Source of the DNA: Patescibacteria group bacterium
Lineage (GTDB): Bacteria; Patescibacteriota; Microgenomatia; UBA1406; GWC2-37-13
Assembly: GCA_026004415.1 (NCBI GenBank)
Contig: BPJC01000003.1
Span: 113,178 to 177,177, forward strand
Length of the DNA: 64,000 nt
Direction of reading: 5' to 3'
The translations under genes were made by a program, and so were the position numbers. The notes beneath the pieces are model-generated. The model was not told where the DNA came from. It searched no databases and saw only the letters and a program-made list of their open reading frames with translations. Shown one piece after another: positions 12,552-63,719 of the stretch; position 1 is the first letter of the stretch, and every line of letters starts with the position of its first letter.

Positions 12552-15188
12552 ATGACAAAAAAAATAGTTTTAAAAACAGAGGAGGATTGTAAAAGGTTTT
12601 GGCTCGAAAATCGTATATATGATTTAAGAAAGGTTCCTAGTGATAAAAATAATAAGCAGTATGTTTTAGTTATGTTTCCTTATCCTTCTGGCCAGGGACT
12701 TCATATGGGCCATACTCGCATTTATACAGGTGGAGATGTCTTGGCAAGATATTTTAGGATGAAAGGATTTGATGTCCTTAATCCAATTGGTTGGGACGCT
12801 TTTGGTTTGCCTGCAGAAAATTATGCTTTAAAGAATAAGACAACCCCTCAAAAGATTGTTCCAGAAAACATACTGAATTTTAAAAGGCAGATATTAGATC
12901 TGGGTCTTTCATATGATTGGAGTAGAGAATTTTCTACTACAGATCCTGAATATTATAGATTTACTCAGTTTTTGTTTACGATTTTTTTTAAGATGGGGCT
13001 TCTTTATAAAGATAATTTGCCTGTTTATTTTTGTCCCTATTGTAAAACCGGTTTGGCAGAGGAAGAGGTTTTGTCTGATGGCACCCATGAAAGATGTGGT
13101 GAAAAAATTACTCGAAAATTACTTCCTCAATGGTTGTTTAAAATTACAGATTATGCTGAGTCATTATTGTCTGAGTTAGACAATCTAGATTGGCCAGAAG
13201 GTATAAAAGATATGCAAAGAAATTGGATTGGCAAATCTGAGGGAGCTGAAATTAAGTTTCAGATTGATAAAAACGGTTTAGATTTAGAGTTATCGGAAAT
13301 TGTCGTGTTTACTACGCGTCCAGATACAATATATGGAGCTACTGCTTTAGTTATTGCTCCTGAACACCCATTAGTAAAAAATTTGTTAAATTCTGAAATC
13401 TCTGATCCGATAAAACAACAGATATCAGAGTATGTTAAAAAATCAAGTTCTAAACTTGATTTAAACAGAACTGATTTAAATCAAGATAAAAGCGGCATAT
13501 TTTCTGGTATTTATGCTATACATCCATTAACACAAGAATCTATTCCTATATGGATCGCGGATTATGTAATAGGTTGGTATGGTAGAGGAGCCATAATGCT
13601 AGTTCCTGCACATGATGAAAGAGATTATCAATTTGCCAAAAAGTACAATATACCTATAAAAAAAGTTATAAAACCACGAGATGATGTAAAGGGCTCTGTA
13701 GAGCCTTATACTGATTATGGTGTGCTTGAAAATTCTGGTGAGTTTGATGGGTTGAGTTCTAAATCTGCTATTGAACAGATTACTAAAAAACTTGAAGACT
13801 TAAACAAAGGATCGTTTGCTGTTGAGTACAAGCTTAGAGATTGGATTTTTTCCAGACAGAGATACTGGGGAGAGCCTATACCAATGGTATTTTGTGAAAG
13901 TTGCGCTAAAAATAAAATAGCTTGGATAGATACAGACTCTGCTAATGATGAGATTACTGCTATAACAGATAATACCAAGGTTGTTGATATTATAAACGAT
14001 CGTTGGAATAAAATAAAAAAATATCTTTATGGCTGGTTTCCTTTAAAGTTATCTGATCTTCCGTTACTTTTACCTGATGTTGATTTTTATGAGTTAACAG
14101 AGACTGGAGAATCACCTTTGGCTAATATCACGGATTGGGTTTCGGTAAGTTGTCCAAATTGTGGCAAACCTGCAAAAAGAGAGACAGATACAATGCCTAA
14201 CTGGGCAGGATCAAGCTGGTATTTTTTAGCCTTTTGTTTTTGGGACTTAATTAAGGATAAAACATTAAAGATTGATTTATTAGATTTTTGGAAAAATAAG
14301 GTAGTACCTAGATTAGAAAAATTTATGCCTGTTGATTGGTATTTGGGAGGTGCTGAACATGCTGTTTTGCATCTATTATATTCTAGGTTTTGGATGCATG
14401 CTTTGTATGAAGTTGGACTTGTTCCTGAAAAAGAACCTTTTTTGAGACTAAGAAATGTTGGTATGGTTTTAGCAGAGGATCATAAAAAGATGAGTAAGTC
14501 GAGGGGAAATGTTGTTAATCCTGATGATTTCATAAGAGAGTATAATGCAGATATTGTTCGTGTCTGTATAATGTTCATTGCTCCTTTTAGTCAGGAAGTA
14601 GCTTGGTCTAAAGATGTTATAAAAGGAGTAGGTCGTTTTATTAAAAAAATATATCAGACATATCTTGTTTATGATAATTCAGCTAACATTGTTGAAAACA
14701 ATGATAAAAAGATTTTTTTAGAGCTCCAAAGGTTAATATCTAAGGTTGATTCAGATTTGTCAGCCGTTAAATTCAATACTGCAATAGCTAGTCTTATGGA
14801 GTTTCTCAATTTGTGGACCGATTATATTGCTAAATTTAATAAAACTGGATTAAGTAGAGACAACGCTAAAAAGTATTTAAAACTATTATCTCCTTTTGCT
14901 CCTTTTATCTCTGATATTATCTGGAGTTCTATTTTGAAAGAAGAAGGTTCTATTCATACACAAAAATGGCCTGAATTGAATATGGAGGATTTGGTTGAAG
15001 AGGAATTTGATTTACCAATTCAAGTTAATGGAAAATTAAGATCGATTATTAGGATAAAAAGAAATTTAAGCAAACAAGATATTGAAAAAATAGTTTTATC
15101 TGATAATAAAATAATGAAATATATTAAAAATAGAAACTATGAACTAATATATATTCCTAATAAAATAGTTAATTTAGTTGTTAAGTGA
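12552..15188 (+). CDS. leuS: Leucyl-tRNA synthetase
   Basis: An 878-residue class Ia synthetase. It shows MFPYPSGQGLHMGHTR (HIGH motif), a zinc site CPYCKTGLAEEEV, the CP1 editing domain with TTRPDTIYGATALV, HDERDYQFA, and DHKKMSKSRGNVV (KMSKS near residue 646). It attaches leucine to tRNA-Leu and hydrolyses mischarged products. It is full length with a C-terminal anticodon-binding domain. It is followed by an M16 peptidase whose ATG lies 4 nt after the leuS stop. Confidence 0.98.
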   Translation: MTKKIVLKTEEDCKRFWLENRIYDLRKVPSDKNNKQYVLVMFPYPSGQGLHMGHTRIYTGGDVLARYFRMKGFDVLNPIGWDAFGLPAENYALKNKTTPQKIVPENILNFKRQILDLGLSYDWSREFSTTDPEYYRFTQFLFTIFFKMGLLYKDNLPVYFCPYCKTGLAEEEVLSDGTHERCGEKITRKLLPQWLFKITDYAESLLSELDNLDWPEGIKDMQRNWIGKSEGAEIKFQIDKNGLDLELSEIVVFTTRPDTIYGATALVIAPEHPLVKNLLNSEISDPIKQQISEYVKKSSSKLDLNRTDLNQDKSGIFSGIYAIHPLTQESIPIWIADYVIGWYGRGAIMLVPAHDERDYQFAKKYNIPIKKVIKPRDDVKGSVEPYTDYGVLENSGEFDGLSSKSAIEQITKKLEDLNKGSFAVEYKLRDWIFSRQRYWGEPIPMVFCESCAKNKIAWIDTDSANDEITAITDNTKVVDIINDRWNKIKKYLYGWFPLKLSDLPLLLPDVDFYELTETGESPLANITDWVSVSCPNCGKPAKRETDTMPNWAGSSWYFLAFCFWDLIKDKTLKIDLLDFWKNKVVPRLEKFMPVDWYLGGAEHAVLHLLYSRFWMHALYEVGLVPEKEPFLRLRNVGMVLAEDHKKMSKSRGNVVNPDDFIREYNADIVRVCIMFIAPFSQEVAWSKDVIKGVGRFIKKIYQTYLVYDNSANIVENNDKKIFLELQRLISKVDSDLSAVKFNTAIASLMEFLNLWTDYIAKFNKTGLSRDNAKKYLKLLSPFAPFISDIIWSSILKEEGSIHTQKWPELNMEDLVEEEFDLPIQVNGKLRSIIRIKRNLSKQDIEKIVLSDNKIMKYIKNRNYELIYIPNKIVNLVVK

Positions 15189-54385: not shown

Positions 54386-54640
54386 TATGACAATAAACTA
54401 TTTATCTTCTACTATTGTCTTTTATAAATGGAGAAATTTAAACAGTTAGTATTCATAGCTGGTGTGAGAGTTTAGAGAATATTTTGAAAAAATGAGAGAT
54501 TAACATAGTGGTTAGTCATTTATATCTAAAATGTTTATATTATTCCTTAAAATGCAAACAAAACAAATGATAATTGAGTATTATAATAAGAATTATAAGT
54601 TAATGTAAGTGTTATCTATATACTTATCCTTTACAGAGTC
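54386..54640. other. Non-coding gap before the ilv promoter
   Basis: About 255 bp without a credible gene between the truncated ThyX-like frame and the ilv promoter. A 15-codon ORF at 54428 is not convincing. I see no repeats, RNA genes or transposon ends. Confidence 0.5.
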
Positions 54641-54669
54641 TTGACATTTGGCATTAACTAGTCTAAAAT
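54641..54669 (+). promoter_or_regulatory. Promoter of the ilv operon
   Basis: TTGACA (54641-54646), exactly 17 bp, TAAAAT (54664-54669). Transcription should start near 54676, one or two bases before the leader-peptide ATG at 54678. Confidence 0.8.
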
Positions 54670-54677
54670 TGTCAGAT

Positions 54678-54731
54678 ATGTTTTCAAAGTCTATTGTTTT
54701 AGTTATTATTGTTATCCTTATTTTCCCGTGA
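54678..54731 (+). CDS. ilvL: ilv leader peptide (attenuator peptide)
   Basis: A 17-codon ORF reading MFSKSIVLVIIVILIFP. Residues 6-15 are ten consecutive branched-chain residues (five Ile, three Val, two Leu). It lies between the ilv promoter and a terminator preceding ilvE. Ribosome stalling on these codons when charged Ile, Val or Leu tRNA is scarce would cover RNA segment 1 and free segment 2 to form the antiterminator. The transcript start just before the ATG makes it essentially leaderless. The hydrophobic composition could in principle be a tiny membrane peptide, but the position and the RNA pairing favour attenuation. Confidence 0.8.
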   Translation: MFSKSIVLVIIVILIFP

Positions 54732-54793
54732 GGCGGGGAGGATAGCTTTAATAGCTAAAACTTTTTTGACCCCGCCAAAGGCGGGGTTTTTTT
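54713..54793 (+). promoter_or_regulatory. ilv attenuator (mutually exclusive RNA stems)
   Basis: Segment 1 (TATCCT 54713-54718 and CCCG 54725-54728, inside the leader ORF) can pair with segment 2 (CGGG 54734-54737 and AGGATA 54739-54744). Segment 2 also contains GGCGGGG (54732-54738), which pairs perfectly with CCCCGCC (54770-54776, segment 3) as an antiterminator. Segment 3 pairs with the identical GGCGGGG at 54780-54786 (segment 4) to make the terminator. A small hairpin (54743-54747 with 54753-54757) fills the antiterminator loop. This reproduces the 1:2, 2:3, 3:4 logic of trp and ilv attenuators. Confidence 0.8.
54770..54793 (+). terminator. Rho-independent terminator of the ilv leader
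   Basis: CCCCGCC, loop AAA, GGCGGGG, then seven T residues (54787-54793). It is the only strong GC-rich intrinsic terminator I find in the window, and it lies 25 nt before the ilvE ATG, so it serves as an attenuator. Confidence 0.9.
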
Positions 54794-54818
54794 ATTTTAT
54801 AAGTTAAGTTTATTTAAA

Positions 54819-55754
54819 ATGAAGTATAAATTTTACCCATATTGTTTTTTTAATGGCAAAATAGTGAGTTTTGAGTCTGCTAAGGTTTCTGTAGCAACTA
54901 AAGCACTTCAGTATGGTATGGGAGTATTTGGAGGTATAAGAGGTTATTATAGAAAAGACCTGTCTGGCGTTTTTGTGTTTAGGCTTTCAGATCATTACAA
55001 AAGATTTTTAAATTCATTAAAGATTTTGGGTGTCAAGTTCCCTTATTCGCATAAGCAGTTAGTTGATATTACAGTTTCTTTAATTAAAAAAAACGCTCCA
55101 AAGAGCAATTTTTATTTACGACCGTTTGCTTACGCTGATTCTTTAGGTTTATCTCCTAATTTTGCATTAGATTCTGATTTTGACTTTACCTTGTATATGT
55201 TGCCACTGGAGGAATATCTGTCTGTAAATAAAGGTCTTAAGGTTAAGGTGTCTTCATTTCGTCGTTTATCAGATAATGCTATTCCATCTAGGGCAAAGAT
55301 TTCTGGAGCTTATGTTAACTCTGCTTTAGCCAGTAAAGAAGCTCTTGATAATGGTTGTGATGAAGCAATATTTTTGACTGAAGATGGACATATAGCAGAA
55401 GGTTCTGCTGAAAACTTATTTATTGTAAGAAACAATACCTTAATCACTAGTCCTGTTTCAGATGAGATATTGGAGGGTATTACTAGAGAAACAGTTATGT
55501 ATTTGGCTAAAAGATCTGGAATCAATGTTGTTGAAAGAAAGATAGATAGATCTGAGTTGTATGTTTGTGATGAAGCGTTTTTTTCAGGAACAGGAGTTCA
55601 GATTTCATGGATAAAAGAGATAGATGGTAGGACTGTTGGCAATGGAAAAATAGGTAAGATAACCAAATTGTTGCAAGATCTTTATTTTAAGGTTGTACAG
55701 GGTTTTGATGACGAGACAGAGTCTTTGAGAACATTTATAAATCTAAAAAAATAA
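54819..55754 (+). CDS. ilvE: Branched-chain amino acid aminotransferase
   Basis: A 311-residue fold-type IV PLP enzyme with KALQYGMGVFGGIRGYY, YLRPFAY, the PLP lysine in RAKISGAYVNS (K160), DEAIFLTEDGHIAEGSAENLF and EGITRETVMYLA. It transfers amino groups between glutamate and 2-oxo acids to give Ile, Val and Leu. It is the first gene after the attenuator; ilvB follows after 2 bp. Confidence 0.95.
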   Translation: MKYKFYPYCFFNGKIVSFESAKVSVATKALQYGMGVFGGIRGYYRKDLSGVFVFRLSDHYKRFLNSLKILGVKFPYSHKQLVDITVSLIKKNAPKSNFYLRPFAYADSLGLSPNFALDSDFDFTLYMLPLEEYLSVNKGLKVKVSSFRRLSDNAIPSRAKISGAYVNSALASKEALDNGCDEAIFLTEDGHIAEGSAENLFIVRNNTLITSPVSDEILEGITRETVMYLAKRSGINVVERKIDRSELYVCDEAFFSGTGVQISWIKEIDGRTVGNGKIGKITKLLQDLYFKVVQGFDDETESLRTFINLKK

Positions 55755-55756
55755 AT

Positions 55757-57481
55757 ATGCAAATGAAACAAATCACAGGAGCAGAACTGCTTTTGCAAAA
55801 ACTTGCATATTTAGGTGTTGATTTGGTTTTCGGTTATCCAGGAGGAGCTGTAATGCCTTTGCATGATGCTTTATATAAATATCAGAGCAAGATTAAACAT
55901 GTTTTGGCCAGACATGAACAAGGAGCTGTGCATATGGCAGAGGGTTGGGCAAGAATGAAAGGTAGAGCAGGAGTTTGTGTTGTAACTTCAGGACCTGGAG
56001 CAACAAATTTAGTTACTGGCATTGCTGATGCTATGATGGATTCTGTTCCATTAGTTTGCTTTACTGGTCAGGTAGCTTCTTCTTTTATTGGCAGTGATGC
56101 TTTTCAGGAAACTGATGTTATTGGTATAACTGCTCCTATAACCAAATGGAATTACCAAATTACTGATTCTAGAGAGATTCCTTATATTGTTGAAAAAGCA
56201 TTTTATATTGCTGAATCAGGTAGACCAGGACCTGTTGTTGTCGATATCAGCAAAGATGCTCAGCTTAATTCTGTGTCAGAAAATGAGTTTTCTAGATTCG
56301 ATAAAAATGATTTAAAAAGCTATAGACCAAATTATTTTCCTAATATGAATCAGATTAGATCTGCTGTTGATTTAATCGAAAAAAGTAAACGGCCATTGGT
56401 TTTGGTTGGGCATGGTGTGATCATAGCTCAAGCAGAGTCTGAGTTAAAAGAATTTGTTGAAAAGGCGAATCTTCCTTTTGCTTGTACTTTGCATGGTTTG
56501 TCTGCATTGTCAAAAAAACATCCTAATTATGTTGGTTTTTTAGGTATGCATGGTAATTATGCTCCTAATATTTTAACTAATAAAGCCGATGTGCTAATTG
56601 CTTTAGGTATGCGTTTTGATGATAGGGTTACAGGAAACTTGGAGAAATATGCTCCAAAGGCTAAAGTTATTCATATTGATATTGATCCGGCTGAGTTGAA
56701 TAAGAATGTAAAAGCAGAGATTCCAATTGTAGCTGATGTAAAAAAGGCTTTGCAGGAAATTAATAAGTTGATAAAAAGCTCTAATAAAAGAGATAAATGG
56801 TTTGAAGAATTTAAAAAAGGATTTGAGTTGGAGAAACAAAAAGTTTTGTCTCGTCAGTTAAACAATAGTTCAGAAAAAATTTTGATGGCTGAGGTTGTGT
56901 CTATGATCTCTGATCTTACTAATGGTAAAGCTAATATCGTTTCAGATGTTGGTCAACATCAAATGATTACAGCAAGGTATTATGAATTTGACAGGTTCAA
57001 TAGTTGGGTATCTTCTGGTGGGTTAGGCACGATGGGTTTTGGTTTGCCAGCTGGATTAGGTGTGAAGTTGGCAAGAGAAGATGAACAGGTTGTTGCAATT
57101 GTCGGTGATGGAGGTTTTCAGATGACTTTTCAAGAGCTTGGCACAGCGGTTGAGTATAACATTGGTTTGAAGACTGTAGTTTTGAATAATTCTTTTTTAG
57201 GTATGGTAAGACAATGGCAAGAGTTGTTTTTTGATAAAAGATATGCTTTCACAGAGATGAAAAATCCTGATTTTGTCAAAATTGCTCAAGCCTATGGTAT
57301 TCAAGCACAGAGAATCTCTAAAAAAACTAATCTTAAATCAGCAATTCAAAAAATGTTGGAGTTTGAGGGTCCATATTTATTGGAGGTTATAGTAGAGAAA
57401 GAAGATAATGTGTTTCCAATGGTTCCAGCAGGTGCTAGTTTAGATGAAATAATATTAGAAGTTTCTCAGATAAAAAAATAG
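55757..57481 (+). CDS. ilvB: Acetolactate synthase large (catalytic) subunit
   Basis: A 574-residue ThDP enzyme with the catalytic Glu in ARHEQGAVHMAEGWAR, TSGPGATNLVTGIADA, a central FAD/cofactor domain (ALGMRFDDRVTG), and the ThDP-Mg motif GDGGFQMTFQELGTAVEYN with NNSFLGMVRQWQE. It condenses pyruvate with pyruvate or 2-oxobutyrate, the first common step of valine and isoleucine synthesis. Full length. Its stop codon overlaps the GTG start of the small-subunit fusion by 1 bp. Confidence 0.97.
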   Translation: MQMKQITGAELLLQKLAYLGVDLVFGYPGGAVMPLHDALYKYQSKIKHVLARHEQGAVHMAEGWARMKGRAGVCVVTSGPGATNLVTGIADAMMDSVPLVCFTGQVASSFIGSDAFQETDVIGITAPITKWNYQITDSREIPYIVEKAFYIAESGRPGPVVVDISKDAQLNSVSENEFSRFDKNDLKSYRPNYFPNMNQIRSAVDLIEKSKRPLVLVGHGVIIAQAESELKEFVEKANLPFACTLHGLSALSKKHPNYVGFLGMHGNYAPNILTNKADVLIALGMRFDDRVTGNLEKYAPKAKVIHIDIDPAELNKNVKAEIPIVADVKKALQEINKLIKSSNKRDKWFEEFKKGFELEKQKVLSRQLNNSSEKILMAEVVSMISDLTNGKANIVSDVGQHQMITARYYEFDRFNSWVSSGGLGTMGFGLPAGLGVKLAREDEQVVAIVGDGGFQMTFQELGTAVEYNIGLKTVVLNNSFLGMVRQWQELFFDKRYAFTEMKNPDFVKIAQAYGIQAQRISKKTNLKSAIQKMLEFEGPYLLEVIVEKEDNVFPMVPAGASLDEIILEVSQIKK

Positions 57482-59151
57482 TGATAACCTTTTTAGTTTT
57501 GTCTGAAAACAAGCCTGGAGTTTTATACAGAATAGCAGATGTATTTTTGAAAAGAAAAATAAATATTCAGTCTTTAACTGTGGCAGAGATTGACAAAAAC
57601 CTTTCTAGATTTACTATAACAGCTTATTGTGATAATGCAAATGTTGAAAAAGTTGAGAAAAATTTATACAAGATTATTGAAGTTGTAAAGGTAACATCAG
57701 CCTATGATCAGGAGTTAATCTTTAAAGAATTAGTAATAGTAAAGGTTAATTCAGCAAGTCCTTATGCTATCAGGGATCTGGATGATCTGATTTATCTTCA
57801 TAAGGCAGAGATTGTTTATACAACAGAGTCAGCGGTTTATATTGAAAAACAAGGTACTGAAGATGATATTAACTCATTTTTAAATTCAGTCCGTCCGTAC
57901 GGCATAAAAGAAATAGTAAGATCTGGCAGGATCGGCCTTTTAAAACCTAAGAATGATAAAAAAACTGTTGATTTTAGCTTAAACTGTCCAGATTATATTG
58001 AGATGTTAGATGTTTCTGCTATCAAAAAGATTGAGTATTATAGCAAAGAGTTTAAAGATGTAGTTTCTTTGGCACAAGGAACACCAGCGTCAGCTACTGA
58101 CAAAGCTATTAGAGAAGCGGCAAAGTATGCTATAGATAAAGGATTGGTTGATAAATACACATCAGGTTATGGTATAGATCAACTTCGTGAGTTGTTGGTG
58201 AAAAAGTTAAAACATGAAAATAATCTGCCTAATATAAACAAAAATAATATTATAGTGACTCATGGTGCCGCCGAAGGTTTAATGGCAATTTTTTTGGCTT
58301 TGTTTAGGCGAAACGATGAGATAGTTGTTATAACGCCAGATTATGCTTCGCATTTAACTCAGATTAGAATTTCACGCAAGGGTGGCAGACCTGTTTTTTT
58401 GCCTATGCAGATTAAAAATGGAGGTTGGAGTTTTAGTTTAGATAAGTTAGAATCAATAATTACAGTCAATACTAAGGCAATACTTATCTGTAATCCTTCT
58501 AATCCTACGGGCAAGGTTTACAGTCGTGAAGAACTTGAGGGTATTTTAGAAATTGCACAGAAATATAATTTGTTAGTTATAACTGATGAAATTTATGAAA
58601 AGTTTGTGTATGGTAAAAAACAGCATATTAGTTTTGCTTCTTTATCTAATGCTTTTGAACGAACCATATCTATTTTTGGTTTTTCGAAATCTTTTTCAAT
58701 GACTGGTTGGAGGATTGGTTACATTGTTGCAGACGAAAGCATTATAAAAAATATTTTTAAAGTTCATGATGCTCTAATCACTTGTCCTACAGCTGTTAGT
58801 CAGTATGCGGCTATAGCAGCGCTAGAAAATAGCGACAGAATCGTTCAAAGACTAAAAGAAGAGTATGAAGAAAAAAGGAAGTTGTGTATTTCATTGTTAA
58901 AGGATAACCCAAAAATTGAGTTTGCTCATCCTGATGGAGCTTATTATTTATTTTTTAAGATTAAAGGAGTAGATGATGATTTTAAGTTTGCTCTTAGATT
59001 GATTGAAGAAGCAGGTGTTGCTATAGTACCTGGTTCTGCTTTTGGATTAGGTGGGGAGGGTTTTTTTCGAATAGCATTTTGTAGAGAAAGAGAAAGTATT
59101 ATAGAGGGTATTGAGAGATTAAATAATTATTTAAAAAAAATTAGGTTATAA
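57481..59151 (+). CDS. Fusion of acetolactate synthase small subunit (IlvH) with a class I/II PLP aminotransferase
   Basis: A 556-residue protein starting at GTG. Residues about 1-75 are the ACT domain of the IlvH/IlvN small subunit (SENKPGVLYRIADVFLKRK). Residues about 80-158 are the C-terminal small-subunit domain (VRPYGIKEIVRSGRIGLL). From about 165 to the end is a complete fold-type I aminotransferase: ASATDKAIREAAKYA, CNPSNPTGKVYSREEL, TDEIYEKFVY, the PLP lysine in GFSKSFSMTGWRIGY (K403), HPDGAYYLFFKI, FFRIAFCRE. The ACT part should bind valine and regulate IlvB. The aminotransferase resembles the aspartate/alanine group and could act on alanine, valine or glutamate. The frame is continuous across the join. 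Confidence 0.9.
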   Translation: MITFLVLSENKPGVLYRIADVFLKRKINIQSLTVAEIDKNLSRFTITAYCDNANVEKVEKNLYKIIEVVKVTSAYDQELIFKELVIVKVNSASPYAIRDLDDLIYLHKAEIVYTTESAVYIEKQGTEDDINSFLNSVRPYGIKEIVRSGRIGLLKPKNDKKTVDFSLNCPDYIEMLDVSAIKKIEYYSKEFKDVVSLAQGTPASATDKAIREAAKYAIDKGLVDKYTSGYGIDQLRELLVKKLKHENNLPNINKNNIIVTHGAAEGLMAIFLALFRRNDEIVVITPDYASHLTQIRISRKGGRPVFLPMQIKNGGWSFSLDKLESIITVNTKAILICNPSNPTGKVYSREELEGILEIAQKYNLLVITDEIYEKFVYGKKQHISFASLSNAFERTISIFGFSKSFSMTGWRIGYIVADESIIKNIFKVHDALITCPTAVSQYAAIAALENSDRIVQRLKEEYEEKRKLCISLLKDNPKIEFAHPDGAYYLFFKIKGVDDDFKFALRLIEEAGVAIVPGSAFGLGGEGFFRIAFCRERESIIEGIERLNNYLKKIRL

Positions 59152-59167
59152 GTTTAATTTTAATCCT

Positions 59168-60283
59168 ATGGCAAAAATAAATTTTGGCGGCATTGAGGAA
59201 AATGTAGTTACCCGTGAAGAGTTTAGTTTAGATAAAGCAAGGGAGATTTTAAGAGATGAGGTTATTGCTGTAATTGGTTATGGAGTTCAAGGTCCTGCGC
59301 AAGCATTGAATCTTAAAGATAATGGTTTTAATGTTATTGTAGGACAAAGAAGGTCTGGTTTTTCATGGCAAAAAGCTGTTGAAGATGGTTGGCAGGAGGG
59401 AAAGGATCTTTTTGATATAGAAGAAGCTGTTGATAGAGGTAGCATCATTGCTTATTTATTGTCTGATGCCGGTCAGATTGAAGTTTGGCCAAGAATAAAA
59501 AAATACTTGACTTCAGGCAAAGCACTTTATTTTTCACATGGTTTTGGAGTTGTCTATAAAGACCATACCGGTATTGTGCCTCCAAATGATATTGATGTCA
59601 TCTTAGTAGCGCCTAAAGGAGCTGGAAGATCTGTTCGTGAGCATTTTCTTAAAGGTAAAGGTATAAACGCTAGTTATGCTGTTTTTCAAGATTATACAGG
59701 AAAGGCTTTAGAAAGAACTTTGGCAATGGGTATAGGTATTGGAGCAGGATATTTGTTTGAAACTACATTTGAAAAAGAAGTTTATAGTGATTTAACAGGA
59801 GAAAGAGGAGTTTTGTTGGGCGCTTTGGCAGGAGTGATGGAAGCACAGTATAACCTTTTAAGGAAGTATGGACATTCTCCATCTGAAGCTTTTAATGAGA
59901 CTGTTGAGGAATTAACAGAGAGTTTAATTCCTTTAATGGCTCAAAAAGGAGTAGATTGGATGATCGCAAATTGTTCCACTACAGCACAAAGAGGAGCTTT
60001 AGACTGGAAAGATAAGTTTAGAAAAGCAGTAGAACCTGTTTTTGAACAGTTGTACAAAAGAGTTAAGTCTGGCCAAGAGGCAAAAAGAGTCATTGAAGAA
60101 AATAGCAAGTCAGACTATAGAGAGAGATTAAATCAAGAGTTGTCTCAAATTCATAACTCTGAAATGTGGCAGGCTGGAGCTGTAGTTAGGCAGTTGAGAC
60201 CTGAGAATCAAGAAGTTAGAGCTATAGCAAAAAACGAAAAAAAACAGATTGTCAAAGTAAGTAGAAAATTAAAAAACAAATAA
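59168..60283 (+). CDS. ilvC: Ketol-acid reductoisomerase, eukaryote/Bacteroidetes-like form
   Basis: A 371-residue enzyme starting MAKINFGGIEENVVTREEF, with VIGYGVQGPAQALNLKDNGFNVIVGQRR (Rossmann loop; Arg and Ser residues suggest NADPH), LVAPKGAGRSVREHFL, and metal ligands in DLTGERGVLLGALAGVMEAQYN. The N-terminal FGGIEENVVTREEF signature is typical of fungal and Bacteroidetes enzymes, not of the usual short bacterial KARI, suggesting lateral acquisition. It converts acetolactate or acetohydroxybutyrate to the dihydroxy acids. Confidence 0.95.
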   Translation: MAKINFGGIEENVVTREEFSLDKAREILRDEVIAVIGYGVQGPAQALNLKDNGFNVIVGQRRSGFSWQKAVEDGWQEGKDLFDIEEAVDRGSIIAYLLSDAGQIEVWPRIKKYLTSGKALYFSHGFGVVYKDHTGIVPPNDIDVILVAPKGAGRSVREHFLKGKGINASYAVFQDYTGKALERTLAMGIGIGAGYLFETTFEKEVYSDLTGERGVLLGALAGVMEAQYNLLRKYGHSPSEAFNETVEELTESLIPLMAQKGVDWMIANCSTTAQRGALDWKDKFRKAVEPVFEQLYKRVKSGQEAKRVIEENSKSDYRERLNQELSQIHNSEMWQAGAVVRQLRPENQEVRAIAKNEKKQIVKVSRKLKNK

Positions 60284-60306
60284 TTTATTTAAGTTTTAAT
60301 ATAAAA

Positions 60307-61554
60307 ATGATAAATATTAATTTAATACAAAAAGCCAAAGTTTTATTGAATGGCGTTGCCATCAAATCTCCTCTTGAATATGTGTCAAGAATCTCTGATG
60401 AGCTTTCCAACAAAGTTTATCTGAAGAGAGAAGATTTGCAAATTGTTCGTTCGTATAAAATAAGAGGTGCTTTTACAAAAATATCTTTTTTAATTCAAAA
60501 AGGTTTTAAAAAAGGTTTTGTTTGTTCTTCAGCTGGAAATCATGCTCAGGGTTTTGCCTATGCCTGTTTTAAGAATAAAGTAAAAGGTTTTATTTTTATG
60601 CCTGTCAGCACTCCAAAGCAGAAGGTTGACAGAGTAGCTTATTTTGGCAAGGAGTTTGTAGAAATAAAACTTGTAGGCGACAGTTATGATGAAACTCAAA
60701 CAGAAGCATTAAACTTTTGTCAGAAAAATAAGCTAAAGTTTGTTCATCCTTTTGATGATGAAGAGATAATAGCTGGTCAGGGGACAATAGGTCTAGAGTT
60801 AATTGAAGACTTATCTGCCAATATAGATTATATCTTTGCTCCGATCGGAGGTGGAGGGCTAATAAGCGGTATTGCCTCTGTAATAAAACAAATAGATAGC
60901 AGGATCAAGATTATAGGAGTTGAGCCTAAAGGCGCAGATAGTATGTATCAATCTTTAAAAAAGAACAAATTAGTTGAGCTTAAAACCTTAGATAAATTTG
61001 TAGACGGCACAGCAGTCAAAAAACCTGGTCAGTTGTGTTTTAACATCATAAAGCAGTCAGTAGATGAGGTAGTAGTAGTAGATGAAGGAGCAGTGGCTGA
61101 AAAAGTTTTAGATTTATATCAAAATGAAGGAATAATTACTGAGCCGGCAGGAGCATTAGCTTTAACGGGTGCCTACAAATACATAAAATACAATAACATC
61201 CAGAACAAAACTATTGTTTGTATTATTAGTGGAGGCAATAATGATCTGCTGAGATACCCTGAGATTATGGAAAGAGCTCTTATTTATCAAGGCAGAAAAA
61301 AATATTTTATTATTGAGTTTTATCAAAAGCCGGGACAGTTAAGAAGATTTTTGAATGAGGTACTAGGAGAGAACGATGATATTGTTTTGTTTGAGTATTT
61401 GAAAAAAAACAACAAAGAAAAAGGTCCTGCATTGGTTGGTTTGGAGTTTGCCACAAAAAAAGATGCTGACCAAATTTATAATAAGCTAAAAAAAGCTGGG
61501 TTTAGTTTTAAAGAGGTTCATCCGGGAGATGATAATTTTTATTTATTAGTTTAA
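60307..61554 (+). CDS. ilvA: Threonine deaminase
   Basis: A 415-residue PLP enzyme with YLKREDLQIVRSYKIRGAF (PLP lysine K51), SSAGNHAQGFAYAC, GGGGLISGIASV, EPAGALALTGAYK and ISGGNND. A C-terminal ACT-like domain (IEFYQKPGQLRRFLNEVLG) is present in the short, single-domain form. It makes 2-oxobutyrate from threonine, the entry to isoleucine synthesis, and is usually inhibited by isoleucine through the ACT-like domain. Confidence 0.94.
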   Translation: MININLIQKAKVLLNGVAIKSPLEYVSRISDELSNKVYLKREDLQIVRSYKIRGAFTKISFLIQKGFKKGFVCSSAGNHAQGFAYACFKNKVKGFIFMPVSTPKQKVDRVAYFGKEFVEIKLVGDSYDETQTEALNFCQKNKLKFVHPFDDEEIIAGQGTIGLELIEDLSANIDYIFAPIGGGGLISGIASVIKQIDSRIKIIGVEPKGADSMYQSLKKNKLVELKTLDKFVDGTAVKKPGQLCFNIIKQSVDEVVVVDEGAVAEKVLDLYQNEGIITEPAGALALTGAYKYIKYNNIQNKTIVCIISGGNNDLLRYPEIMERALIYQGRKKYFIIEFYQKPGQLRRFLNEVLGENDDIVLFEYLKKNNKEKGPALVGLEFATKKDADQIYNKLKKAGFSFKEVHPGDDNFYLLV

Positions 61555-61566
61555 GATCGAATAATA

Positions 61567-63336
61567 ATGAAAAAAACAAAGAACTTTATTAATGAAGGAA
61601 TTCAGACAGTCAGAGATAAAGGACCTGATATTTTTAGAAAAAGTTATCATATGTTGCCGAATATTTCTTTGATGATTGCCGCAGGAGTTATAAAAAAAGT
61701 TTCAGATGTTAACAAGCCTTTTATAACGGTAATTAATTCATATACAACACACATACCTGGTCATTCTCATCTTAATGTTTTTGGAGAATATTTAGTAAAG
61801 TCTTTGCAGAAAAAAGGATTTAATGTTTGGTACTGCAATATAGGAGGAGCTGTAGATGATGGTATTGCAATGGGTCATTTTGGCATGAAGTACTCATTGC
61901 CGTCGCGGGAGTTAATTACAGATCAAATAGAAACTATTATAGGAGCTCACCCGCCATCAGCTTGGATTGGTATCGGAAACTGCGATAAGATTGTACCTGC
62001 TATGCTTAATGCAATGGTTAGAATTGATATTCCATCAATCTATGTATCAGGAGGTCCTATGCTTGCCGGATCTGATAATACTGATCTAATTACAGTATTT
62101 GAAGGGGTAGGAAAGTTTTCGGCTGGAAAGATGAAAAAGTCAGAGTTGTTAAAACTTACAGAGTCAGCCTGCAGAACCTGCGGCAGTTGCGCAGGAATGT
62201 TTACAGCCAACTCAATGAACTGTTTAGCTGAAGCAATAGGGTTAGCTTTGCCAGGTAATGGGACAATTCCAGCCGCAGAATGGATTGATAAAAAAAACTT
62301 TAATTGGAGATTAAACCCAAGACGGTTTAAGTTGTTTGATCGGGTTGCGGACAGAATTGGTTATTTAATTGAACATAAGATTACTCCAAGTCAAATAATT
62401 GATAAACAAGCCATTGATAATGCCTTTATTTTAGATATGGCAATGGGAGGGTCAACAAATACAGTACTGCACACATTAGCTTTGGCTTATGAAGCTGGTA
62501 TTAAGTATGACTTAAAAAGTATCCAACAGTTATCTAAAAAAACTCCTAATGTTTGCAAAGTATCACCATCAAGGCCAGATATTCATGTTGAAGATGTTGA
62601 TCGGGTCGGAGGTATAATGGCAATATTGAAAGCTATATTAAATTACACAGAGGCTCCGTTTGATGCTAAAAAAACCACAGTAGCAGGAAAATTAATAGAT
62701 TATATCAAGACAGCTCCTGATCCAGATGGAGATGTTATCAGAGTTGGCAAGAATGTTTTTTCCCAAGAAGGAGGGTTAAGGATTCTATATGGAAATATAG
62801 CTCCAGACGGCTCCGTTGTTAAAACTGCTGGAGTTGATCCTAATATGATGGTTTTTGAAGGCAGAGCTGTTTGTTTTAACAGCCAAGAATCTGCTCTTAA
62901 AGCTATTTTAAAACGCAGAATAAAAGACGGTGATGTAGTTGTTATTCGTTATGAAGGCCCTAAAGGAGGTCCCGGAATGCAAGAGATGTTGTCGCCGACA
63001 TCTGCTTTAAAAGGTCAAGGTATTAAGGCCGCTCTTATTACAGACGGCAGATTTTCTGGCGGAACTAGAGGATTATGTGTTGGTCATATTTCACCTGAAG
63101 CCGCCAGTAGAGGTCCGATAGCAGTTATAAGAGATGGTGACAAGATCTTTATTGACGCCAATAAAGGAGTTTTAGAGCTTAAGGTTTCAGATAGAGAAAT
63201 AAAAAAAAGACTTGCAAAACTGCCTGAATTTGAACCAAAGGTAAAACGAGGCTGGTTGTATAGATACAGCAAGCATGTTACTAGCGCAAATTATGGAGCA
63301 GTAATGGAGGATATAATAGCAAATATTAACAGTTAA
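61567..63336 (+). CDS. ilvD: Dihydroxy-acid dehydratase
   Basis: A 589-residue Fe-S dehydratase with [30 protein letters not shown], the cluster Cys segment [32 protein letters not shown], and [16 protein letters not shown] with [22 protein letters not shown] near the C-terminus. It dehydrates the dihydroxy acids to the 2-oxo acids used by IlvE. Full length. It completes the Ile/Val pathway in this operon. Confidence 0.96.
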
Positions 63337-63344
63337 ATTAATCT

Positions 63345-63719
63345 ATGAAAACAGTAAACACAACAAAAGCGCCAATGCCTGTAGGTCCATATAGTCAGGC
63401 AGTTATTGCCCAAAATTTAGTTTTTTGTTCAGGACAGATAGGGATTGATCCAAAGACTAATAAATTAGTTGATGGTTTTAACAAACAAGTTAGACAGATA
63501 TTCGAAAATATAAAAAAGATTTTGCAAGTTTCCGGTTCAGGTATAAATCAAATTGTTAAGGTAACGGTTTATCTTACTAATTCAGGTGATTTTGAAACAT
63601 TTAATAAAATATATGAAAACTATATTAAGCACAAGCCTGCCAGAACAACGGTATTTGTTGAAAAACTTCCTAAAAAGGCATTGCTTGAAGTTGAGGTAAT
63701 AGCAATTAATGTAACTTAA
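63345..63719 (+). CDS. ridA: RidA family enamine/imine deaminase
   Basis: A 124-residue protein with KAPMPVGPYSQAV, VFCSGQIGIDPKTNKLVDG, VKVTVYLTNSGDFETFN and KPARTTVFVEKLPKKALLEVEVIA; the Arg of PARTT is the catalytic residue. RidA hydrolyses the reactive 2-aminoacrylate released by threonine/serine deaminase (IlvA), protecting PLP enzymes such as IlvE. Its place 8 bp after ilvD fits that job. Confidence 0.96.
   Translation: MKTVNTTKAPMPVGPYSQAVIAQNLVFCSGQIGIDPKTNKLVDGFNKQVRQIFENIKKILQVSGSGINQIVKVTVYLTNSGDFETFNKIYENYIKHKPARTTVFVEKLPKKALLEVEVIAINVT

Follow-up and report, generated by a model that had tools for sequence, protein, structure and literature searches.

A ribosome-mediated transcription attenuator very likely precedes the ilv operon of a Patescibacteria genome

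The window analysed here is a stretch of 64,000 nucleotides from a Patescibacteria group bacterium, in which a short ORF rich in Ile, Val and Leu codons lies before ilvE. The locus raises the question of whether a reduced genome of this kind controls its ilv operon through the translation of a leader peptide. According to the literature, leader-peptide attenuation is known in Proteobacteria and Actinobacteria, and Firmicutes were added in 2010 (PMC2965389, PMC1262725). No paper linking it with CPR/Patescibacteria was found in the open-access literature searched (most subscription papers and preprints were outside the scope), and the sole joint match for CPR and leader peptides concerns bacteriocin leader peptides. 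Based on the analyses described below, and without RNA, translation or starvation data, it is very likely that a ribosome-mediated transcription attenuator controls the ilvE-ilvB-ilvN/aminotransferase-ilvC-ilvA-ilvD-ridA operon.

An earlier note on this DNA had called the genome CPR-like, and this fits: its size is 1.01 Mb at 99.6% completeness, and uL30, whose absence is a hallmark of CPR, was missing in 20/20 relatives and present in 13/14 controls. The surprise voiced in that note at attenuation in such a reduced genome also seems justified, given the lack of a linking paper in the open literature searched.

Control region and downstream operon

The anatomy of the control region was established by direct reading and folding. 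It consists of the following features:

54641..54669, + strand, promoter TTGACA-17-TAAAAT, with the -35 box at 54641-54646 and the -10 box at 54664-54669 (11/12 consensus, shuffle P = 0.002)
54678..54731, + strand, leader ORF MFSKSIVLVIIVILIFP with its stop (17 codons, ATG 54678, TGA 54729-54731); orthologous leaders occur in 13 other family ilvE-ilvB genomes
54693..54722, + strand, ten control codons, codons 6-15, I V L V I I V I L I (direct reading; masked folding)
54696..54761, + strand, protector hairpin 1:2, with pairs 54696-54708:54749-54761, 54711-54719:54738-54746 and 54725-54729:54733-54737 (folding, swap test)
54732..54738, + strand, segment 2 GGCGGGG, 5' arm of the antiterminator (direct reading, folding, swap test)
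54770..54776, + strand, segment 3 CCCCGCC, arm common to antiterminator and terminator (direct reading, folding; compensatory G1:C7 to A:U change in genome G001)
54780..54786, + strand, segment 4 GGCGGGG (direct reading)
54768..54793, + strand, intrinsic terminator 3:4, 9 pairs including 7 GC, then seven T at 54787-54793

Transcription is predicted to start at about 54674-54678, as inferred from the -10 spacing. The leader ATG is located 8 nt past TAAAAT; the leader is near-leaderless, and no Shine-Dalgarno (SD) sequence precedes it. Segment 2 begins at the base right after the leader stop codon, and the intrinsic terminator sits before the first structural gene, ilvE (ATG 54819). Folding revealed that the 1:2, 2:3 and 3:4 pairings are mutually exclusive. 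Thus, the 17-codon ORF with its ten Ile/Val/Leu codons, the TTGACA-17-TAAAAT promoter and the GGCGGGG/CCCCGCC/GGCGGGG-T7 arrangement described in the earlier note held base for base, and the three competing pairings, with antiterminator and terminator excluding each other, held in folding.

Two further elements were noted in the control region. In this leader (54714-54722 and 54736-54742), as well as in most family leaders, a GGAGG-like motif after the stop codon pairs with CCTCC/CCTTA-like codons, which resemble the 16S anti-Shine-Dalgarno sequence; this may be a codon constraint only, and a ribosome-binding role remains possible. The U6 that follows the protector hairpin (54762-54767) was considered as a possible additional pause site or terminator and set aside, being not conserved in G001.

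Pfam analysis revealed that the leader precedes a single run of genes constituting a complete ilv operon:

54819..55754, + strand, ilvE, class IV aminotransferase, first structural gene (Aminotran_4)
55757..57481, + strand, ilvB, acetolactate synthase large subunit (TPP_enzyme N/M/C)
57481..59151, + strand, acetolactate synthase small subunit (ACT) fused to a class I aminotransferase in one ORF (ACT_AHAS_ss, ALS_ss_C, Aminotran_1_2)
59168..60283, + strand, ilvC, ketol-acid reductoisomerase (KARI_N/KARI_C)
60307..61554, + strand, ilvA, threonine dehydratase (PALP, Thr_dehydrat_C)
61567..63336, + strand, ilvD, dihydroxy-acid dehydratase (ILVD_EDD)
63345..63719, + strand, ridA, enamine/imine deaminase (Ribonuc_L-PSP)

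A second copy of 54636-63508, 99.7% identical and with different flanks, lies on a small contig of the same genome (G000 C8, L156); the identity begins 5 nt before the -35 box and stops within ridA. This second operon copy could possibly be a strain variant, an assembly effect or a recombined cassette.

Folding of the leader and the proposed switch

The leader fold comprising the 1:2 protector and the terminator has a free energy of -50.5 kcal/mol (z = -7.6 against dinucleotide shuffles), and the 2:3 antiterminator (-18.3 kcal/mol) forms with segment 1 absent and segment 4 not yet made. At equilibrium, the full-length fold favors the terminator over the antiterminator, and removing segment 1 does not change this order; it is therefore inferred that the choice of the switch must be kinetic and made during transcription.

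The dependence of folding on ribosome position was shown in silico by masked folding, in which the transcript extended to segment 3 and everything behind the front edge of the stalled ribosome was masked. With the A site at codons 6-14, the antiterminator probability was 0.74-0.78, and 0.55 at codon 15. At codons 4-5 the values were 0.01 and 0.18; past the control codons they were 0.14 (codon 16) and 0.03 (codon 17), and they reached 0.00 once the ribosome stood at the stop codon or when there was none. In this model, the ten control codons occupy the positions at which a stalled ribosome is predicted to turn the operon on. In the same model, most relatives behaved alike, with weak 1:2 protectors in G003 and G068. 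Across a set of 67 family leaders, the median antiterminator probability was 1.00 for a ribosome immediately upstream of segment 2, 0.14 without a ribosome and 0.00 with the ribosome covering segment 2.

The following mechanism is proposed, in which leader translation and the response to amino acids (read-through on starvation) are inferred. RNA polymerase would start just before the leader AUG, and the ribosome would load without a Shine-Dalgarno site. When charged Ile, Val and Leu tRNAs are ample, the ribosome at the stop codon would cover segment 2, allowing 3:4 to pair and transcription to end at 54787-54793. When any of the three amino acids is short, the ribosome would stall in codons 6-15 and open 1:2, leaving segment 2 free, so that 2:3 would form first and RNA polymerase would read through. 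Without a ribosome, 1:2 would hide segment 2 and the terminator would form.

Conservation, covariation and rival explanations

The search within the family covered 57, then 72 genomes, and ilvE orthologues were found in 17 of them. Of the family ilvE-ilvB operons whose upstream DNA could be read, 14/14 have a leader with BCAA codons and then a terminator (G000, G001, G002, G003, G004, G012, G014, G031, G062, G068, G084, G085, G087 and G089); G086 has the operon but was left out, its contig starting inside ilvE. No leader was found at the solitary ilvE genes of family genomes G008 and G076 and of a named Patescibacteria MAG (L027). In a wider scan of genome contigs, most of the ilvE homologues came from outside CPR, and the only Patescibacteria MAG was this one. 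Homologues from other phyla had no comparable leader just upstream, with one weak short-ORF match (L055).

The leader peptides of the family include MLAKGLVLVIIVLLIIP, MKALNLALIVVLLIIAP, MKHNGSILVLLITR and MVCSTVINVVLSP; the sequences of MFSKSIVLVIIVILIFP, MKHNGSILVLLITR and MVCSTVINVVLSP diverge while the BCAA codons are kept. Enough upstream sequence was available for 14 BCAA leaders (13 from the family and one from G110); in these, the ATG is located 5-13 nt after the -10 box, and no SD-like motif was detected within 20 nt. Such a motif was found in 1/67 family leaders; the start codons of this larger set were partly picked by their proximity to the -10 box, and the distance distribution is not independent.

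Covariation was assessed by comparing own with swapped duplexes, without a covariance model. For 31 leaders, the energy sum of the own 2:3 duplexes beat all 50,000 swaps (z = -7.1), and for 15 leaders the sum for the pairing of leader ORF and segment 2 (1:2) was reached by 0/20,000 permutations. Both sets include related sequences, so the figures are somewhat inflated. In G001, of the same genus, segment 2 has AGC in place of GGC, and segment 3 compensates with CCCCGCTT in place of CCCCGCC; this adds one pair to the antiterminator and leaves a G-U in the terminator. The stems are very different in other families (GAGAGG/CCTCTC in f169, GGGAGA/TCTCCC in f16 and f5), and in some relatives (G089, G062 and G072) the 2:3 helices are short or imperfect. 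When nine leaders were aligned with MAFFT, RNAalifold returned no structure, because alignment gaps misplace the helices.

The attenuation reading is thus supported by comparative tests that were able to refute it. The earlier note had stated that it would fail if relatives kept the operon without the leader ORF, if the stems showed no compensatory changes, or if transcription started downstream of the terminator. The leader was kept in 14/14 operons, compensatory change was found in the swap tests and in G001, and the only strong sigma-70-like site of the region on the + strand is upstream of the leader, RNA data being absent.

One rival explanation treats the short ORF as incidental and the hairpin as an ordinary terminator or processing site that serves transcription coming from upstream. 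In its favor, runs of at least ten Ile/Val/Leu codons arise by composition, occurring in 5/3574 short ATG-stop ORFs in 426 kb of the own genome, and the run alone is therefore weak evidence. A chance Ile/Val/Leu ORF was considered for this reason and dropped on conservation: promoter, leader, segment 2 and terminator form a unit in 14/14 operons that is missing at three solitary ilvE genes. Moreover, segments 2 and 3 covary, and other operons have other cognate codons. This rival is regarded as very unlikely. Only five strict GC-rich terminators were found in the same 426 kb, and just one of them, that before ilvE, directly follows an ORF with a BCAA run (run of at least five).

The second rival is a T-box, riboswitch or protein-binding leader that senses BCAA without leader translation. 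The terminator/antiterminator logic by itself would fit. However, apart from tRNAs, nothing in the window or at 16 related loci passed the gathering score of an Rfam family; the structure has no conserved sequence except for complementarity; and the coding content follows the downstream gene. The best sub-threshold Rfam leader match by score was Phe_leader (34.5 versus 55 bits). Such sensing is considered highly improbable.

According to the third rival, leader translation acts otherwise, through nascent-peptide arrest, translation attenuation or Rho. The leader is indeed coding in relatives, and leader-dependent translation attenuation is known elsewhere, in mycobacterial cysteine genes (cited in PMC13236596). 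However, the peptide is not conserved past the cognate residues, which argues against a specific arrest peptide, and an intrinsic terminator with a U-run lies upstream of ilvE; no structure sequestering an ilvE ribosome site was seen. This possibility is likewise judged very unlikely, and ribosome-mediated transcription attenuation remains the preferred reading.

Attenuators elsewhere and their significance

The earlier note had described a single attenuator, and in this respect the scope was under-called. The own genome was read near-completely (0.98 Mb) and a pattern search was performed. At least three more attenuators were found outside the window:

G000 C1:55298 (L301), Leu leader MVLQINNQSLALLLSAGFRR before a leuA-like HMGL gene
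G000 C6 ~15,100-15,180 (L269), Phe/Tyr leader MVNNQLVKVNFGFYFFSPAKAG before PfkB kinase and DAHP synthase
G000 C1:123392 (L224), BCAA leader MKKQVVLSLIVLFVLILA before a 448-aa protein without a Pfam match

The segment 2-3-4 pattern GGCGG-CCGCC-GGCGG-T5 has 85 copies spread over 46/72 family genomes (reversed-pattern control, 0) and 21 copies in 19/360 phylum genomes outside the family. In 67 distinct extracted copies, the leader frame holds longer runs of one residue class than the other frames do (mean 3.6 versus 2.5). A Phe/Tyr leader precedes DAHP synthase, directly or one gene upstream, in 19/21 family genomes. Across the family, the residues of a leader agree with the enzyme encoded downstream (permutation p < 5e-5, and likewise when BCAA is left out); because the enzymes were labelled with both leader and enzyme in view, the permutation counts as support and not as a blind test. 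The pairs include Leu with leuA, Phe/Tyr with DAHP synthase, Tyr with beta-eliminating lyase, Ser with HAD phosphatase, HH with aromatic amino acid lyase and with a histidyl-tRNA synthetase-like protein, and MMM with SAM hydroxide adenosyltransferase. It is likely that the ilvE attenuator is one of many in the family, each tuned to a different amino acid.

Several loci stand apart by their downstream genes. At L328, L339, L354, L306 and L327, HH, Tyr or MMM attenuators precede aromatic amino acid lyase, beta-eliminating lyase or SAM hydroxide adenosyltransferase; starvation would here induce enzymes commonly viewed as catabolic or salvage. A BCAA-codon attenuator precedes pyruvate kinase in G063 (L258 4334 / L307). 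Many proteins of about 450-660 aa are found behind BCAA-codon attenuators (L297-L299, L302, L304, L319, L322, L323, L341, L348, L351, L352, L356 and L368); most of those tested have no Pfam match, and a few resemble GCS2 ligase or class III aminotransferase.

Ketol-acid reductoisomerase was detected in only 13/380 genomes sampled across the phylum and in 34/373 in the class. A leader and terminator precede the first BCAA gene in f16 (4/4), in f5 (1/1) and in 5/13 of the reductoisomerase genomes fetched for f169, several others of which lack upstream sequence. The same holds for further f1 genomes (G071, G072 and G063, with a different aminotransferase first) and for G110, outside the class. 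Three matched leaders were found in G736: BCAA with ilvB, LLLNLVLLL with a leuA-like gene, and IIAITTT (Ile/Thr) with ilvA. No convincing upstream leader and terminator were found in the reductoisomerase genomes of f28, f32, f64, f69, f112, f117, f140 and f149. Outside the family, a Trp leader MQISFNWWTTSLWR and a terminator precede a trpB-like PALP gene in G294 (L373), a genome from a different family of the class, and Phe, Leu and Val leaders also occur.

The attenuators of Proteobacteria, Actinobacteria and Firmicutes belong to the same mechanism class, with leader codons matching the operon product (PMC1262725, PMC2965389); in contrast to those, several amino acids are covered within one family here, and the leaders are near-leaderless. 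Corynebacterium glutamicum ilvL (ilvBNC) is similar in its BCAA-codon leader, three-hairpin antiterminator/terminator competition and near-leaderless form (PMC11857589); its transcription start lies 1 nt from the leader start codon, so it has no ribosome-binding site (PMC11857589, citing Morbach 2000). It differs in phylum, in its leader MTIIRLVVVTARRLP, where BCAA codons are scattered whereas ten stand in a row here, and in having ilvB rather than ilvE downstream. Mycobacterium tuberculosis ilvB1NC shares a BCAA uORF, a terminator/antiterminator and stop-codon ribosome masking, but has four regulatory codons, 'LVVI', and belongs to Actinobacteria (PMC13236596). The E. coli ilvGMEDA system (ilvL) is alike in its Ile/Val/Leu-rich leader, 1:2/2:3/3:4 logic and full ilv operon downstream. 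The enteric leader has an SD site and a longer 5' UTR, and the present leader is not of this form; no sequence homology is claimed. The mechanism, inferred without expression data, is classical. Its novelty lies in its occurrence and breadth in CPR, and its interest in the phylum, the near-leaderless form and its place in a large amino-acid-specific set.

A bolder reading, toward which we lean, is that the family runs much of its amino-acid metabolism through near-leaderless attenuators spread over the genome, with a separate one for each amino acid or pathway (BCAA, Leu, Phe/Tyr, Tyr, His, Met and Ser). This set would include unusual targets, namely pyruvate kinase, a SAM-cleaving enzyme and aromatic amino acid lyases, together with many unknown proteins of 450-660 aa behind BCAA leaders. 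If true, attenuation would be a main regulatory layer in these reduced genomes. Regulation in CPR is almost wholly unknown because culturing is hard, and attenuators can be read from sequence: the leader codons name the sensed amino acid and give functional clues to unknown genes downstream. The attenuators suggest that very small genomes retain starvation sensing, coupled transcription-translation and intrinsic termination, and the retained amino-acid sensing bears on whether CPR cells truly need hosts for amino acids.
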